Part shown: positions 13,167-47,201 of the stretch, in pieces
How the letters are laid out: every line of letters starts with the position of its first letter
How positions within the stretch are numbered: position 1 is the first letter of the stretch
Origin: Nocardioides ungokensis
Lineage (GTDB): Bacteria > Actinomycetota > Actinomycetes > Propionibacteriales > Nocardioidaceae
NCBI RefSeq assembly: GCF_013466985.1
Contig: NZ_CP059164.1
Span: forward strand, 2,985,001 to 3,049,000
Reading direction: 5' to 3'
Length of the DNA: 64,000 nucleotides
Position numbers and translations under genes: made by a program
Notes under the pieces: generated by a model
What the model was told of the DNA's origin: nothing
The model's database searches: none
Seen by the model: only the letters and a program-made list of their open reading frames with translations

Positions 13167-16100
13167 TCATCCCGCACTCCCGGGGCTGCGGTGCCAGAGC
13201 TTCCGCGAGACGTCCTTGGTGGACTCGCCGGCCGGCTTGATGTCGGCGTACGGCGAGAGCTTGAACCCGCTGGAGTGCACCAGCACCCGTCGACGGCCCA
13301 TGCCGCCGGCCGCACTGTGGTGCGCGGGCTCCTCGGCCTCCCCCTCCCCGGTCGCGGGGAAGGACTGGGGACGTGCCATGACCGGCCGGGTGGCGCGGCT
13401 CTCGGCGGCACCGGCGACCGCGGCCTCCCCGACGAAGGCGTTGCCCTCGGGCACCACGGCCATCACCTCACGGACGGCGTCCAGGCCGGCGTCACCACCT
13501 CCACGCGACCGCCACAGCGCGAACAGCCCGGGCAGCTCCCAGCAGCCGGTCGCGCGCAGCGAGACGCCGCGGCGGCCGGTGCGTCGCAGCTCGCCGCGGA
13601 CCACGAGCAGCCAGGAGTGGAAGACCGTGGCGGCGTAGGGCCCCTGGGCGTCCTCGAAGAACGTCGCATCGACCGGGCCGGTGGCGTCGTCGAGGGTCAG
13701 GAAGATGACCCGGCGCCCGGACCGGATCGGTGGGGTCTGGGTCGCGACCTTGACGCCCGCGACCAGCAATTCGGCCTTGCTGCGCCGGGACAGCAGGTCA
13801 CGGCTGCGGGTCACCCCGAGCTCGTCGAGGAACCGGAGTAGGTGTCGACGACGTGCCGGCTGGCGTCGAGGCCCAGGATCTCGAGCTCGGCGCGCATCTT
13901 CTCCTCCGCGTCCATCTCCGGCAGGCCGCTGACCATCTCGTCCGGTCCCTCCCGGGCGCGTCCCCGAGGTCGAGGGCGAGCTGCACCGACGTCACCGGCC
14001 GCGGTGGCGGGGTGGCCCGGGACTGGGCGGCAGCCTTGGCCCACACGCCCGGGTCGGCCAGCGGGTGCCGCTCGAGGGCGGGCGCCCCCTCCCGGACCGC
14101 GGGATCGGTGCTGTTGCGGGCGGCGGCGTCCTCGGCCCGCGCCCGGGCGGTGGCGACGGTCCCGCTCCACGACTTCCGGCCGGCCAGCCCCCGACCCCGG
14201 CCGGCCCGCTCGACGGCCCGGGCGTGCCGGTCCAGCTCGGAGACCTGCAGCAGCAGGTCACGGCGGGTCACCCGGCCGCGGCGGCCGACCCCGTCGAGCG
14301 AGGTCCCGATGCCGTAGACGGAGTCGAACCCGCCGGCCAGCACGAGGCGCTCCGCGATCGGCCGGGACACCCCGGCGCGGTGCCAGAAGTCGGTCAGCGA
14401 GTGGTAGGGCCGGGCCGCGGTGACCCGCTCCACCTCGGCCTCGCTGATGCCCTTGACCTCCGCCAGCGCCAGCCGGATCCCCCACGGCCGCCCGTCGGGG
14501 ATCCCCGGCTCCGGGGGCGGCTCGCCGGACACCTGGTCGACCCGCTCCACGACGTACTCCTTCTCCGAGGCGTTGACGTCGAGGCCGAGGACGGCGACAC
14601 CGAGCTGGCGCGCGTCCTCGAGGATCAGCCGCTTGGGGTACATGCCCGGGTCGTGGGTGAGCACCCCGGCGAGGAAGTGGGCCGGCCAGTGCGCCTTGAG
14701 CCAGGCCGACTGGTAGGTCGGCAGCGCGAACGCCGCGGCGTGGGCCTTGCAGAAGCCGAACGACGCGAACGCCTCGAGGACCTTCCAGATCCCCTCGACC
14801 ACGGCAGGGGGTAGCCGTGCGCCAGCGCCCGCGGGAAGAACCACAGCTTCGTCTCGGCCATGCCGTCGACGTCGCCGAGCGCGCGACGCTTCTCGTCGGC
14901 CTCGGCGTTGGAGATGCGGGCGAACCGGGCGATGATCTCGATGACCTGCTCGTGGAAGACCACCACGCCGTGGGTCTGCGCGAGGATCGGGCGCAGGTCC
15001 TCGTGGAGGTACGCCGGCTGCTTCCACCCCTGCTTGACGTCGAGGTAGGGCGTGATCATGTCGCTCTTGACCGGCCCGGGCCGGAAGAGCGAGATGTCGG
15101 TGATGATGTCCTCGAAGCTCTCGATGCCGGACTTGCCGACCAGCTCGCGCTGGCCGGGTGACTCGATCTGGAAGACGCCCAGGGTCCTGGCGGTCGAGAT
15201 CATCGCGTAGGTCGCCGGGTCGTCGAAGGGCACCTGCTCCTCGTCGTCGAGGTCGATCTCCACGCCGTCGACCGCCGGATCTCGGTGAGGGCGTGGGCCA
15301 TCGAGGACTGCATGCGGATGCCGAGCACGTCGAGCTTGAGCAGGCCGAGGTCCTCCACGTCGTCCTTGTCGAACTGGCTCATCGGGAAGCCGGCGTACGA
15401 CGCCTCCACCGGGGTGCGGTCCAGCAGCGTGGCGTCGGAGAGCAGCACCCCGCACGGGTGCACCGCGATGTGGCGCGGCAGCCCGTCGAGCCGCTCCACG
15501 AGCCGGAACATCAGGTCGAGCCTTTCCTCCCCCAGGCCCGAGGCCCGCAGCTCCGGAGCTCGCGCAGGGCCACCGGGCGTCGCGGGCCCGGATGTGCGGG
15601 AACGCCTTGGCGATCGCGTCGATCTCGCCCGGCGGCATGCCGAGCGCGGCGCCGACGTCGCGGACGGCGTGGCGGACCCGGTAGGTGTCCATCATCGAGA
15701 CGCACACGCACCGCTCGCCGCCGTAGCGGTCGAGGACCCGCTCGTAGACCTCCAGGCGGCGCGCCGACTCGACGTCGACGTCGATGTCGGGCAGCGCCTG
15801 GCGCAGTGGGGAGAGGAACCGCTCCATGAGCAGGCCGTGGCGGATCGGGTCGACCCGGAGATGCCGAGCAGGTAGTTGACCAGGCTGCCCGCCCCCGAGC
15901 CGCGCGCCGCGCAGCGCACGCCCATGTCGCGGATCAGGTCGGTGACGTCGCCGACGGTGAGGAAGTACGACGCGTAGCCGAGCTCGCGGATCACCTCCAG
16001 CTCGTCGTCGAGCCGCTTCCAGAGGACCTGGCGGGGCGCCGAGCCGTAGCGGTCGCCGACCGCGCCCTCGGCCCGGGCGCGGAGCAGGGCGTCGGCCGGG

Positions 16101-43505: not shown

Positions 43506-44753
43506 TCAGGCGGCGACCGGCTCCTCGGCGCGGTTGGTCACCCGGCGGGCGGCCTGGGGCAGCGTCGTACCCAGCCGGGCGGCGAGCAGCCCGCCCACCG
43601 CGGCGACCGCGGTCAGCCCGAGCCAGATCGGCGCCGTGCCGCGGTCGAGCAGCCAGGCGAACGCCACGGGCGAGATGGTCCCGGCGAGGTTCCACGCCAG
43701 CTGGATCAGGGAGAGGTAGCGACCTCGCAGGTGCTCCGGCGCCGCCTCGGCCGAGAGCGCGCCGTGCACCGGGCCGCCGAGCACCTCCCCCGCCGTGTAG
43801 ACGACCGCGCCCACGAGGACCACGACGGTGGCCAGCGCGATCGACAGGCGGCTGGCCCCGAGCATGATCAGGAACGACGCACCGAAGACCGTGTTGGTCA
43901 GCACGAGCACCCGCCACCGGACCGCACCCGTCATCGCCCGCACCACCAGGCCCTGCCCGAAGCCGACCATCACGGTGTTGATGGTGAACACGGCACCGGT
44001 GACCCAGCCGGGCAGGCCCAGCACGGTGGTGGCGTAGACGGGCATCGCGAAGTTCAGCGCCATCATCGAGGTCGAGAAGGCCAGCTGCGTCGCCCAGAGC
44101 AGGCGGTAGGGCCGGTCCCGCAGCACCACGCCCCAGGCCCCCTCGGGGCTTCGGTGCTCGCTGCGCGGCGTCGGCGGCACGGCGAGGAGCAGCACGAACG
44201 CCAGGACGTACGACGCCGCGTTGGCCACCACGACCGCGGAGTACGCCGTGGTGGTGCCGATCGTGATGGCCAGGCCGGAGAGCAGGCCACCGAGGGCGAA
44301 CCCCACGTTGCGCAGCGCGCCCAGGAAGCCGAACCACTTCTCCCGCTCCCCCGGCACCGAGATCGCGGCCACGATGTTGCCGTAGGAGCCCCAGAACGCC
44401 GTCCGGCCGACGGTCACCACGACCGTCCACAGCGTCAGCGCGACGAAGGAGTCGGTAACGAGGTAGGCGACGTACCCCAGCGCCTGCAGGGCGTTGCCCG
44501 CCAGCAGCACGTGCTTGGCGCCGTACCTGTCGACGATGCCGCCGAGCAGCGGACCGGCCGGCAGGGCCACCGCCGAGGCCAGCGAGATCGCCGCCCCCAC
44601 CTGCACGAGGCTCAGGTCGGTGGTGACCAGGAAGTAGAGCATGCAGACCGGCATGAAGACGCCGCTGCCGACGGCGTCCACCGCGATGGCGGTGACGAAG
44701 CGGCGGTGGTCGCCGACGGAGGGGAAGCCGAGTCGATGCAGCACGGGAGACAT
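43506..44753 (-). CDS. Major facilitator superfamily transporter
   Basis: 415 residues with about twelve hydrophobic helices. GPLLGGIVDRYGAKHVLLAGN (about 72-92) is the MFS loop 2-3 motif (G-x-L-x-D-R-x-G). YLSLIQLAWNLAGTISPVAFAWLLDRG near residue 345 fits multidrug-exporter-like MFS proteins. Two starts are possible: ATG 44753, directly abutting GGAGG, or GTG 44744 with 9-nt spacing, which is the better-spaced one. It is divergent from DUF1028 across an array of GAGTCGGCGC elements. Confidence 0.88.
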   Translation of the reverse strand: MSPVLHRLGFPSVGDHRRFVTAIAVDAVGSGVFMPVCMLYFLVTTDLSLVQVGAAISLASAVALPAGPLLGGIVDRYGAKHVLLAGNALQALGYVAYLVTDSFVALTLWTVVVTVGRTAFWGSYGNIVAAISVPGEREKWFGFLGALRNVGFALGGLLSGLAITIGTTTAYSAVVVANAASYVLAFVLLLAVPPTPRSEHRSPEGAWGVVLRDRPYRLLWATQLAFSTSMMALNFAMPVYATTVLGLPGWVTGAVFTINTVMVGFGQGLVVRAMTGAVRWRVLVLTNTVFGASFLIMLGASRLSIALATVVVLVGAVVYTAGEVLGGPVHGALSAEAAPEHLRGRYLSLIQLAWNLAGTISPVAFAWLLDRGTAPIWLGLTAVAAVGGLLAARLGTTLPQAARRVTNRAEEPVAA

Positions 44754-44791
44754 CCTCCGACCTCAACCCCACGTGAAGGCAACCCGATTAC

Positions 44792-44898
44792 GCCGAGTCG
44801 GCGCAGATGTACCTCACCCCACCCGAGTCGGCGCTCCTCGACGGTCGACCAGCGCCGACTCGGGGTGCTGGCCTGGTCAACGAGCGCCGACTCGGCGC
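44792..44898. repeat. Four-copy palindromic motif array in a divergent promoter
   Basis: CGAGTCGGCGC at 44794-44804 and 44824-44834, and its inverse GCGCCGACTCG at 44852-44862 and 44884-44894. Copies 1 and 4 are themselves near-palindromes (GCCGA-G-TCGGC; copy 4 extends to 44898). The two pairs nest, so a double hairpin is also possible. Copy 4 abuts the -10 box of DUF1028. Confidence 0.8.
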
Positions 44899-44904
44899 TA
44901 GGGT
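44899..44904 (+). promoter_or_regulatory. -10 box of a leaderless DUF1028 promoter
   Basis: TAGGGT ending 6 nt before the ATG at 44911 and touching the last motif copy, so a protein bound there would block transcription. Confidence 0.55.
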
Positions 44905-44910
44905 CGCGCC

Positions 44911-45735
44911 ATGACGTTCTCGATCGTGGCCAGGTCTGCAGACGGAGAGTCGTGGGGCGTGGCGGTTGCCTCGAAGTTCCTCGCCGTGGGGTCGGCGGTG
45001 CCGGCGGCGGTGGCCGGTGTCGGCGCCATCGCCACCCAGGCCGACGCCAACGTGGCCTACAAGGGCCAGGCCCTCGCACACATGGACGACGGGGCCACTG
45101 CCTCGGTCGCGCTCCAGCGGCTGATCGAGGACGACGAGAGCCGCGACCACCGTCAGGTGGGCATCGTCGACGTCGACGGCGGCGCGGCCACGCACACCGG
45201 CCATGCCTGCCTGGACTGGGCCGGGGGCACCACCGGGGACGGCTACGCGATCCAGGGCAACATCCTGGTGGGCGAGGAGGTCGTCGAGGCGATGGAGGCG
45301 GCCTGGCAGGAGTCCGGCGACGACGAGCCGCTGGCCCGACGGTTGCTGCTCGCCCTGGCCGCGGGCGACGCCGCCGGTGGTGACAGCCGGGGCCGGCAGT
45401 CGGCCGCGCTGCTCGTCGTACGCGAGGACGCAGGGTACGGCGGCCTCGACGACATCGCGGTGGACCTGCGCGTCGACGACCACGTCGACCCGGTCGCCGA
45501 GCTGGCGCGACTGCTCGACCTCAACGACCTCTACCTGACCGCCTCGACCGAGGAGGAGAAGGTGCCGGTCACCCCGGAGCTCGAGCAGGAGCTGGAGGAC
45601 TTCGCCCGGGCCGGGGGCCACCGCGACTTCCACGCCTGGGTCGGCACCGAGAACTACGAGATGCGGGTCGCGCCCGACCTGTCGTGGATCGACCAGCGCA
45701 TCCTCGACATCGTCCGCGGCACCCCGGCGCCGTGA
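44911..45735 (+). CDS. DUF1028 (Ntn-hydrolase-fold) protein
   Basis: 274 residues: [31 protein letters not shown] at the start, [15 protein letters not shown] (about 47-61), [13 protein letters not shown] (about 109-121) and a peptidoglycan-binding-like or extra C-terminal region ending in the ENYEMRV segment. DUF1028 proteins have an Ntn-hydrolase-like fold; the activity is unknown. No signal peptide. Its TGA overlaps the GTG of glpK (GTGA at 45732-45735), so the two are translationally coupled. Confidence 0.88.
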
Positions 45736-47201
45736 GCGTCCTCGCGATCGACGCCGGGACCACCGGCGTCACCGCGGTCGTGGTCGACGACGACGGCACG
45801 ATCGCGGCCACCGGCTACCAGGAGTTCGGCCAGCACTTTCCGCAGCCCGGCTGGGTGGAGCACGCCCCCGAGGAGATCTGGCAGGCCACCCTCGAGGCGA
45901 CCCGCGACGTCCTGAAGAAGTGCGACCGGAGCAGCCTGCAGGCGGTCGGGATCACCAACCAGCGCGAGACGATCCTGTTGTGGGACCGCGAGACCATGGG
46001 CTCCCCCCGGCGCGCGATCGTCTGGCAGGACCGGCGCACCGCCGACATCTGCAAACGCCTCCGCGACGAGGGCCACGAGGACCGGGTCACCGAGCTGACC
46101 GGCCTGCGCCTCGACCCGTACTTCTCCGGCACCAAGCTGGCCTGGCTGGCCGAGCACGAGCCGCACACGTGGGCACTCGTCGAGTCGGGGCGGTACGCCG
46201 TCGGCACCGTCGACTCCTACCTGATCGCCCGGATGACGCGCGGCACCTACCACGTCACCGACGTCTCCAACGCGTGCCGGACCCTCCTCCTCGACCTCTC
46301 CGAGGGCGACTGGTCCGACGAGCTCTGCTCGCTGTTCGGGGTGCCCCGGGACGCGCTCCCGGAGCTGGTGCCCAACTGGGGCGAGGTCGCGACCACCGAC
46401 CCCCGCTCGTTCCTGGACCTGTCGCTGCCGATCGCGGGGATCGCCGGCGACCAGCAGTCGGCGCTGTTCGGCCAGACGTGCTTCGACGAGGGCGACTCCA
46501 AGTGCACCTACGGGACCGGGTCGTTCATCCTCACCAACACCGGCACGACCCTCGAGCGCTCCGACGCGGGGCTGCTGTCCACCGCGGCCTGGCGCTCCCC
46601 CGACGGGGAGCTGACCTACGCCCTCGAGGGCGCGATCTTCGTGACCGGCGCCGCGGTCCAGTGGCTGCGCGACGGTCTGCAGATCGTCGGCTCTGCTGCC
46701 GAGACCGCGGCGATCGCGGCGACCGTGCCCGACAGCCAGGGCGTGGTCTTCGTCCCGGCGCTCACCGGTCTCGGCGCGCCGCACTGGGACCCCCACGCCC
46801 GCGGGCTGCTGATCGGGATGACCCGCGGCACGACCCGGGCCACGTCGTCCGCGCGACGCTCGAGGCGATCGCGTTCGAGGTGCGCGACGTGCTCGAGACG
46901 ATGCCGGCTCGCACCTCGCTGCGGGTCGACGGCGGAGCCGCCGCCAACGACCTGCTCTGCCAGGTCCAGGCCGACCAGATCGGCGTACCCGTTGAGCGCC
47001 CGGCGATCATCGAGACCACCGCACTGGGCGCCGCCTTCCTCGCCGGCCTCGGCACCGGGGTCTGGTCCTCCACCGACGAGCTCCGCGACACCTGGCGCCT
47101 GGACACACCTCTTCGAGCCCACCAGTGACCGCACCCGGGCCGACGCCGCCCACACCCCGCTGGCTGAAGGCCGTCGACCGCTCGAAGGGCTGGCCGACTG
47201 A
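45732..47201 (+). CDS. glpK: Glycerol kinase, frameshifted 3' end
   Basis: Phosphorylates glycerol to sn-glycerol 3-phosphate. About 490 residues of the FGGY family: [12 protein letters not shown] (phosphate loop), [18 protein letters not shown] and [12 protein letters not shown] (glycerol contacts), [27 protein letters not shown] and, after a break, [14 protein letters not shown]. Four indels lie at about 46840 (missing base), 47106 (extra), 47155 (extra C) and 47194 (missing G); repaired, the end reads RSKGWAD with TGA at 47201. No glpF or glpD nearby. Confidence 0.9.

Follow-up and report, generated by a model that had tools for sequence, protein, structure and literature searches.

The divergent promoter region between an MFS exporter gene and a DUF1028-glpK unit in the window (the whole 64-kb stretch analysed here, from Nocardioides ungokensis, genome G000) raises a question: is the repeated motif that it contains an operator for these genes, or one representative of something found elsewhere in the genome? 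It is apparent from Table 1 that the array has the form given in the original prediction, with two direct and two inverted copies and the last copy touching the -10 box. Four exact copies of CGAGTCGGCGC, in the order ++--, begin at the core positions listed, at start-to-start steps of 30, 28 and 32 bp. Copy 4 is the near-palindrome GCGCCGACTCGGCGC, which reaches up to the TAGGGT box. The window as a whole contains five exact copies, the four in the array and a lone fifth at 15761. When two mismatches were allowed, 170 matches were observed in the window against 163 expected, a total not above chance, so that the observation rests on the exact copies being clustered.

Table 1. Features of the array and of the genes on either side of it (window coordinates)
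Feature	Coordinates	Strand	Remarks
MFS exporter gene (PF07690, MFS_1)	43506..44753	-	Pfam
Unit 1	44791..44812	+	CGCCGAGTCGGCGC-AGA-TGTAC, core 44794-44804
Unit 2	44821..44842	+	core 44824-44834, arm TCC-TCGAC
Unit 3	44844..44865	-	core 44852-44862, arm TGG-TCGAC
Unit 4	44876..44897	-	core 44884-44894, arm TCG-TTGAC; near-palindrome abutting the -10 box
TAGGGT, likely -10 box of DUF1028	44899..44904	+	by eye
DUF1028 gene (PF06267)	44911..45735	+	Pfam

The TAGGGT box is 7 nt from the DUF1028 ATG, and the DUF1028 start is likely leaderless; by eye, a TANNNT box is found shortly 5' of this ATG in many relatives. Consensus scans of the window found neither promoters nor terminators (no T-run terminator was present), and Rfam gave no match at the gathering score. 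The glpK-like gene beside the array encodes an FGGY kinase (Pfam), the reading frame of which (45732-47128) shifts midway: the N-terminal part is in the 45684-47201 frame and the C-terminal part in the 45920-47128 frame. This is either a pseudogene or an assembly indel, and assembly indels are therefore possible in G000.

A search of the whole genome revealed that the motif is far from confined to this locus. The 11-mer CCGAGTCGGCG occurs 136 times in G000, against 22 occurrences of the reversed control pattern. The full unit, as seen from other arrays, is approximately 22 bp long, CGCCGAGTCGGCGC-NNN-TTGAC, and CGAGTCGGCGC-TGS-TTGAC with no more than one mismatch gave 60 matches in G000 and none for the control. 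In an alignment by genome, with one exact-core unit taken per strand block and array, information was limited to about positions -2 to +19 of the unit, and the spacer was near random in genomes with 32-bp spacing. At least 28 multi-unit arrays were found in G000. With genes called by our own simple codon-usage gene finder, 15 of these lie between convergent and ten between co-directional genes, two are within predicted genes, and one, that of the window, is divergent. The motif is thus dispersed over unrelated sites, mostly at the 3' ends of other genes.

Nor is the array conserved upstream of DUF1028. The divergent MFS/DUF1028 pair was present in 22 of the 80 relatives' loci compared, which are mostly from Nocardioides and from which very near relatives may be missing. 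The core was found in the gap between the two genes in none of the 21 relatives with a readable gap; in the 22nd, the genes overlap. In all but two of the 22 the genes are separated by 26 to 96 bp (the outliers being -115 and 1596), compared with 157 bp in the window. Judged from these comparisons, the window array looks like a private acquisition. Units 1 and 4 cover the two divergent promoter regions, so that protein bound to the array would probably act on both promoters; the probable outcome would be repression or insulation of the MFS and DUF1028-glpK genes, as a side effect of the privately acquired array.

Tandem pairs of the form GAGTCGGCGC-N(8-26)-GAGTCGGCGC, with the arm left free, were found in 79 of 215 Nocardioides genomes, some of them with just one pair; by our count, the reversed pattern used as a control was present in 7 of the 215. 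The arm seen in the window is much more restricted: among 196 genomes of the genus, it occurs in 60 copies in G000, 42 in G044 and 222 in G061, with 0 to 3 in the others. A scan of the class gave matches in 20 of 296 genomes, six of which are Nocardioides, and the matches outside the genus appeared by eye to be microsatellite-like or to have a different unit. The array spacing was, in addition, present in G205, from another genus of the family.

A set of 143 arrays was assembled for comparison. This is a non-random sample, in which the places listed by the searches were supplemented by single arrays or small numbers of them from additional genomes, with arrays identical letter for letter left out. 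In this sample 73 arrays are convergent, 49 co-directional and seven divergent, and 14 are inside genes or unclear, whereas the gaps of 30 bp or more without an array at the same loci comprise 17 convergent, 98 co-directional and 51 divergent. The median distance from the edge of the array to the closer of the two stop codons is 5.5 bp, and it is no more than 20 bp in 106 of 122 cases.

The arm is alike inside most genomes and differs between genomes, with TTGAC, CTGAC, TGTCC, TTGCC, CTGCAG, GAGGCA and others observed. The core is thus shared across genomes, and the arm that follows it is a genome-specific 'dialect'. Two genomes, G001 (L304-L313) and G114 (L334-L339), have two types of array that differ in arm and in spacing, and one of the types has a near-perfect central hairpin (inner distance 20). 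In G044 some arrays of a 21-bp unit (L171, L172, L174, L178 and L182) are situated inside predicted genes, where a unit of this length keeps the reading frame.

The orthologous place is also occupied by an array in another genome for 33 of the 143 arrays. These form 31 pairs, 19 of them at the locus of a gene next to rbpA (described below) and 12 elsewhere. Among these 12 the arm differs in ten and is the same in two (G089/G178 and G000/G044), from which it follows that places can persist through a genome-wide change of sequence. Several places contain an array in one genome and are empty in another; for example, L188 of G061 is 210 bp long and the corresponding place in G000 is 18 bp. It is possible that the array places are insertion hot spots. 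A first impression that L208 of G000 shares its place with L328 and L298 was overturned by the comparison of orthologous places.

The spacing of the units is markedly quantized. The 306 same-strand spacings in the 143 arrays are mostly 32 (174), 31 (30), 33 (29), 21 (39) or 22 bp (12), and a separation of two or three turns of the helix puts neighbouring sites on the same face of the DNA. The inner distances between + and - units (n=94) cluster at 18-20, 25-29, 36-40 and 47-50, with a best period close to 10 bp (R 0.73, the arrays of one genome being non-independent). Facing arms within an array differ by 2.46 mismatches of 9, compared with 2.59 between different arrays, and so are hardly more alike, while same-strand neighbours differ by only 1.71 mismatches of 9 and are closer than the arms of different arrays. 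On this sequence evidence, proteins bound on one face of the duplex fit better than hairpin pairing.

A candidate for such a protein is encoded at a place common to eight genomes. Comparison of masked flanks revealed that this place adjoins rbpA and a gene of approximately 320 codons, next to pgl. The protein has an AbiEi-type domain: PF13338 (AbiEi_4) scored above the cut-off in L180, L314, L289 and L339, just below it in L278 and L299, and below it in L270, and AbiEi_1 was just over the cut-off in L349. All three of the proteins scanned with the PADLOC AbiEi models gave a match. A second domain resembles REase_MTES_1575, with 25 and 29.5 bits in L314 and L339, below the cut-off of 38.2; the match was weaker still in L270 and L278, and there was none in L180, L289 and L299. 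The columns of D244, E255 and H262 are invariant across nine members. NCBIfam supplied no name for the four AbiEi-type proteins scanned, and solved structures gave no match at E≤1. A phage origin of the gene was considered and rejected: the viral contigs contained 86 stretches with the pattern, and tblastn showed none of these to be a relative.

There are one to a few close copies of the gene per genome. It is adjoined by rbpA at 30 of 34 loci (pgl being found at 25 of these) and lies away from rbpA in G044, G061, G128 and G024. Where pgl is not adjacent or is one gene further (L385, L387, L390, L393 and L350), an Endonuclease_1 protein is encoded beside the gene, and DUF6359 is present in four of the five cases. 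The other neighbours scanned were uppS, ABC transporters, malate synthase, acyl-CoA dehydrogenase, YkuD, cytochrome b, Endonuclease_1, a symporter and an amidase; no AbiEii (DUF1814) toxin was seen among the neighbours scanned.

The association of this gene with arrays was assessed by a motif-free scan of 67 loci of the family (homologs with E below about 1e-50), in which an array was called on finding at least three tandem pairs and their inverse across the gene. Such arrays were found at 53 of the 67 loci, at none of 74 DUF1028 control loci and at none of 16 distant homologs. Eight of the 67 loci were the source of the alignment and had been picked for their adjacent arrays; a recount without them gave 46 of 59. 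By taxon, the figures were 45 of 53 in the genus, four of five in other genera of the taxonomic family and four of nine in other families of the class. The remaining 14 of the 67 had either nothing (12) or two pairs (2), and two pairs were also reached at six of the 74 controls and four of the 16 distant homologs. When the helical spacings were preset, pairs on both sides were found at 49 of 67 family loci compared with one of 74 controls. When any spacing from 14 to 50 was allowed, 13 of the 53 loci had a modal spacing of 21/22 and 36 one of 31-33; the remaining four had some other value.

The arrangement around the gene is also specific in orientation. At the 34 loci of the top homologs, arrays with the GAGTCGGCGC core point inward on both sides at 19, outward on both sides at one, occur on one side only at ten and are absent from four. 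Three of the latter (G125, G075 and G167) have another core, and the array of the fourth (G011) was found by a more tolerant scan. As had been predicted for G125, in which the gene is present and GAGTCGGCGC pairs are not, arrays of another core lie on both sides of the gene. In G075 the gene is flanked by a core that differs from that of the dispersed arrays examined, which keep GAGTCGGCGC. Distinct cores accompany distinct genes in further genomes, ACCGGGCACTTC in G084 and G141 and GAGACGGCAGTC in G061. Of 20 lower-scoring homologs none has the GAGTCGGCGC core, and the five closer ones (L354-L357 and L364) are accompanied by arrays that differ in sequence. Among ten array-rich genomes, nine have their own arrays on the flanks of the best homolog.

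Several individual loci may be mentioned here. The single outward-pointing case is G001 (L350), with the arrangement -- gene ++, unlike the 19 other two-sided loci. The rbpA/pgl gene is bracketed by other-core arrays at L391 (G125), L389 (G075) and L397 (G167), the core at G125 being CGCCGARCTGACGC-TTGTGCACG with a period of 32. Three homologs from outside the genus, L420 (G364), L424 (G231) and L425 (G484), are accompanied by phased inverted arrays of quite different sequence with spacings of 21-22 or 31-35; L420 and L425 are from outside the family. Two other genes were found between arrays, an AraC-type regulator at L176 and, at L190, one that matched nothing, and a pair of arrays therefore does not always bracket an AbiEi gene.

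Gene and arrays also co-occur across genomes. With the gene at about 1e-110 or better and at least four tandem pairs as cut-offs, 42 genomes have both, nine arrays only, 33 the gene only and 131 neither. The corresponding Fisher p of 1e-15 is the strongest of 15 pairs of cut-offs, all with p≤3e-6 (kinship ignored). Among genomes with at least ten pairs, 30 of 35 have the gene at about 1e-110 or better. The exceptions are G024, with an array-flanked homolog at 1e-88, and G000, G610, G144 and G180, whose completeness is 91.7, 61, 87 and 94 %, respectively. In G000 no homolog was found at E≤1e-45. The best, at 428.7 kb (L353, G000:C1:427269-430724), is broken over several frames and has no flanking arrays; it may have read another dialect. 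As no intact close homolog was found in G000, the window array is possibly an orphan.

The arms next to the gene match those dispersed in the same genome. In ten genomes, gene-flanking and dispersed arms gave 1.6 vs 4.5 mismatches of 9 (p=5e-5); G075 was outside this comparison because it has no arms of the shared core at its gene. Arm and protein distances were then compared by a sliding Mantel analysis of 28 genes in 30 windows, six of the 34 genes having been dropped for mixed arms (G001 and G128) or for having no arms of this core (G075, G125, G011 and G167). The correlation peaked at residues 31-50 (r 0.45, kinship ignored), the predicted recognition helix, and remained 0.41 (p 0.001) when made partial on the whole protein. 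Three other windows reached p<0.05: 21-40 and 41-60, which overlap the peak, and 231-250, far from it. The nuclease part gave no arm signal once the winged helix was held constant. A window of 30-50 had at first been chosen post hoc, and the sliding scan is the unbiased version.

Taken together, the anatomy of the arrays, their phasing, their linkage to the gene, the dialect match in ten genomes and the co-variation of arm and recognition helix are the observed basis for the explanation offered here. The window array is probably one dispersed copy of a genus-wide population of phased binding-site arrays, and the AbiEi/Vsr-fold protein is its likely reader. Each site, on this reading, is a duplex of approximately 22 bp, consisting of a constant, near-palindromic half and a genome-specific arm, and an array comprises one to several sites per strand block, typically a + block and then a - block. 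The most likely cognate reader combines an AbiEi-type winged helix (AbiEi_4, with AbiEi_1 in one member scanned) with a Vsr-fold domain like that of REase_MTES_1575. The gene for this protein is bracketed by arrays, and the same dialect is scattered at the 3' ends of genes in most genomes tested. The reader may bind the units cooperatively, its nuclease domain may be active, and it may spread or maintain the arrays, by analogy with RAYT and REPs.

A different function, that of a bidirectional terminator or mRNA 3'-end stabilizer, in which selection would act on a hairpin formed by the + and - copies through pairing in RNA or extrusion in DNA, seems unlikely. The closeness of arrays to stop codons is as this function would have it, as are the share of convergent gaps (73 among the 129 intergenic arrays, compared with 17 among the 166 gaps without an array), the near-perfect hairpins of the G001 and G114 arrays with an inner distance of 20, and the RNA fold of the window array (z = -5.7). 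The arm comparisons do not agree with it, however, since facing arms are no better matched than stated above and it is the same-strand neighbours that are alike. Tandem same-strand copies phased at 21-22 or 31-33 bp, the bracketing of one gene family and the arm/helix co-variation would be left unaccounted for, and the window copy lacks a T-run terminator and sits in a divergent promoter. The nested RNA or DNA hairpins that had been proposed as an alternative are a possible by-product, though not one for which the facing arms are matched.

A regulator acting locally on the MFS exporter and the DUF1028-glpK unit is very improbable. Such an operator would agree with the span of the array over both promoter regions and with the position of copy 4 against the -10 box. 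Against it are the arrays beside the 3' ends of so many other genes in G000, the absence of the core from the readable gap in all 21 relatives, and the lack of a regulator among the immediate neighbours (MFS, DUF1028 and kinase). The local operator was rejected as the main reading on the grounds of dispersal and of absence in relatives, and is largely refuted. The look of a protein-binding array, which was part of the original prediction, is retained by virtue of the helical spacings and the arm/winged-helix co-variation; the dedicated MFS/DUF1028-glpK operator is not.

We regard as highly doubtful the proposal that the arrays are neutral satellites, i.e. short units growing by tandem duplication at tolerant 3' junctions, with the gene hitch-hiking. 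Same-strand neighbours do share the arm, and often the spacer too, and the in-gene arrays of G044 would be expected of such growth. On the other hand, cores and arms are much alike across the arrays of a genome while the spacers are near random, the spacings are helically quantized, the arms differ at ten of the 12 shared pairs outside the gene locus, and arm and helix co-vary. Classical REP/BIME elements spread by a RAYT (Y1 HUH) transposase are scarcely credible, and were rejected barring an unrecognized HUH enzyme: the dispersed, palindromic, inverted intergenic sets and the gene flanked by its repeats are REP-like in distribution, as had been foreseen for a scattered motif, but PF01797 at E≤0.001 is all but missing from the genus (1 of 215 genomes, none in G000; 5 of 14 control genomes positive), and no tetranucleotide foot and hairpin were seen in the unit consensus.

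Returning to arrays read by the AbiEi/Vsr-fold protein, we consider the chances about even that they constitute an undescribed repeat system of actinomycetes, in which the reader binds phased arrays, brackets its own gene with them and seeds or maintains arrays at the 3' ends of genes throughout the chromosome, and in which a drifting code re-tunes the arrays in place from lineage to lineage. Such a system might have been domesticated from a mobile element, might insulate 3' ends along the whole chromosome, or might combine the two. If this is true, it would represent a second, unrelated solution of the REP/RAYT type, one chromosomal protein with a population of short repeats, in a genus nearly free of RAYT. 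It would also provide a natural series of protein/DNA dialect pairs for solving the reading code of the AbiEi winged helix, a candidate role for proteins annotated so far by AbiEi or DUF559-like domains alone, and, at dozens of gene ends in each genome, extra sites with a possible influence on transcription.

In the open-licence literature searched, AbiEi and DUF559 were never found together, and neither a link between Vsr-like/DUF559 proteins and repeat arrays nor a description of the Nocardioides array/AbiEi-REase system was found. One paper in that literature, on Legionella, matched DUF559 together with tandem repeats. STAR elements are one kind of intergenic direct-repeat array. To our knowledge, no cognate gene is bracketed by STAR elements or by the TAACTGA repeats of Beggiatoaceae. 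The latter are described, in the part of the source available, as short repeats in many intergenic sets (PMC4679880), and both kinds differ from the Nocardioides arrays in sequence and spacing.

Vsr repairs T:G mismatches. The C-terminal domain of the reader matches, below the cut-off in some members, MTES_1575, named in an excerpt as a novel Vsr-REase (PMC3710099), and may resemble the Vsr-like/DUF559 group; a Vsr-like DUF559 protein of Caulobacter is tied to the DNA damage response in the available text of another report (PMC12907096). With type IV AbiE toxin-antitoxin systems the array reader shares the DNA-binding domain family of AbiEi and Rv2827c. According to excerpts from the relevant study, these two proteins recognize repeats of 23 bp, of which a promoter has two or four, at separations of 3, 4 or 13 bp, and the DNA is bent by AbiEi (PMC7319586). 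The array reader differs in that no AbiEii (DUF1814) neighbour was seen, in its extra Vsr-fold domain, and in having sites genome-wide, not confined to its own promoter. REPtrons, as far as the accessible part of their description goes, consist of a mostly single-copy, housekeeping-like gene with repeats beside it and many more dispersed, protein and repeat co-evolving (PMC8266576). The array system is similar, being also a gene bordered by its own repeats with copies dispersed in extragenic space. It differs in its enzyme, an AbiEi winged helix with a Vsr-fold nuclease-like domain and not HUH, and in its sites, which are probably phased duplex arrays where REPtrons have single-strand hairpins with a tetranucleotide foot. 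The array system thus belongs neither with the AbiE systems nor with the REPtrons, and combines the reader of the former with the logic of the latter.
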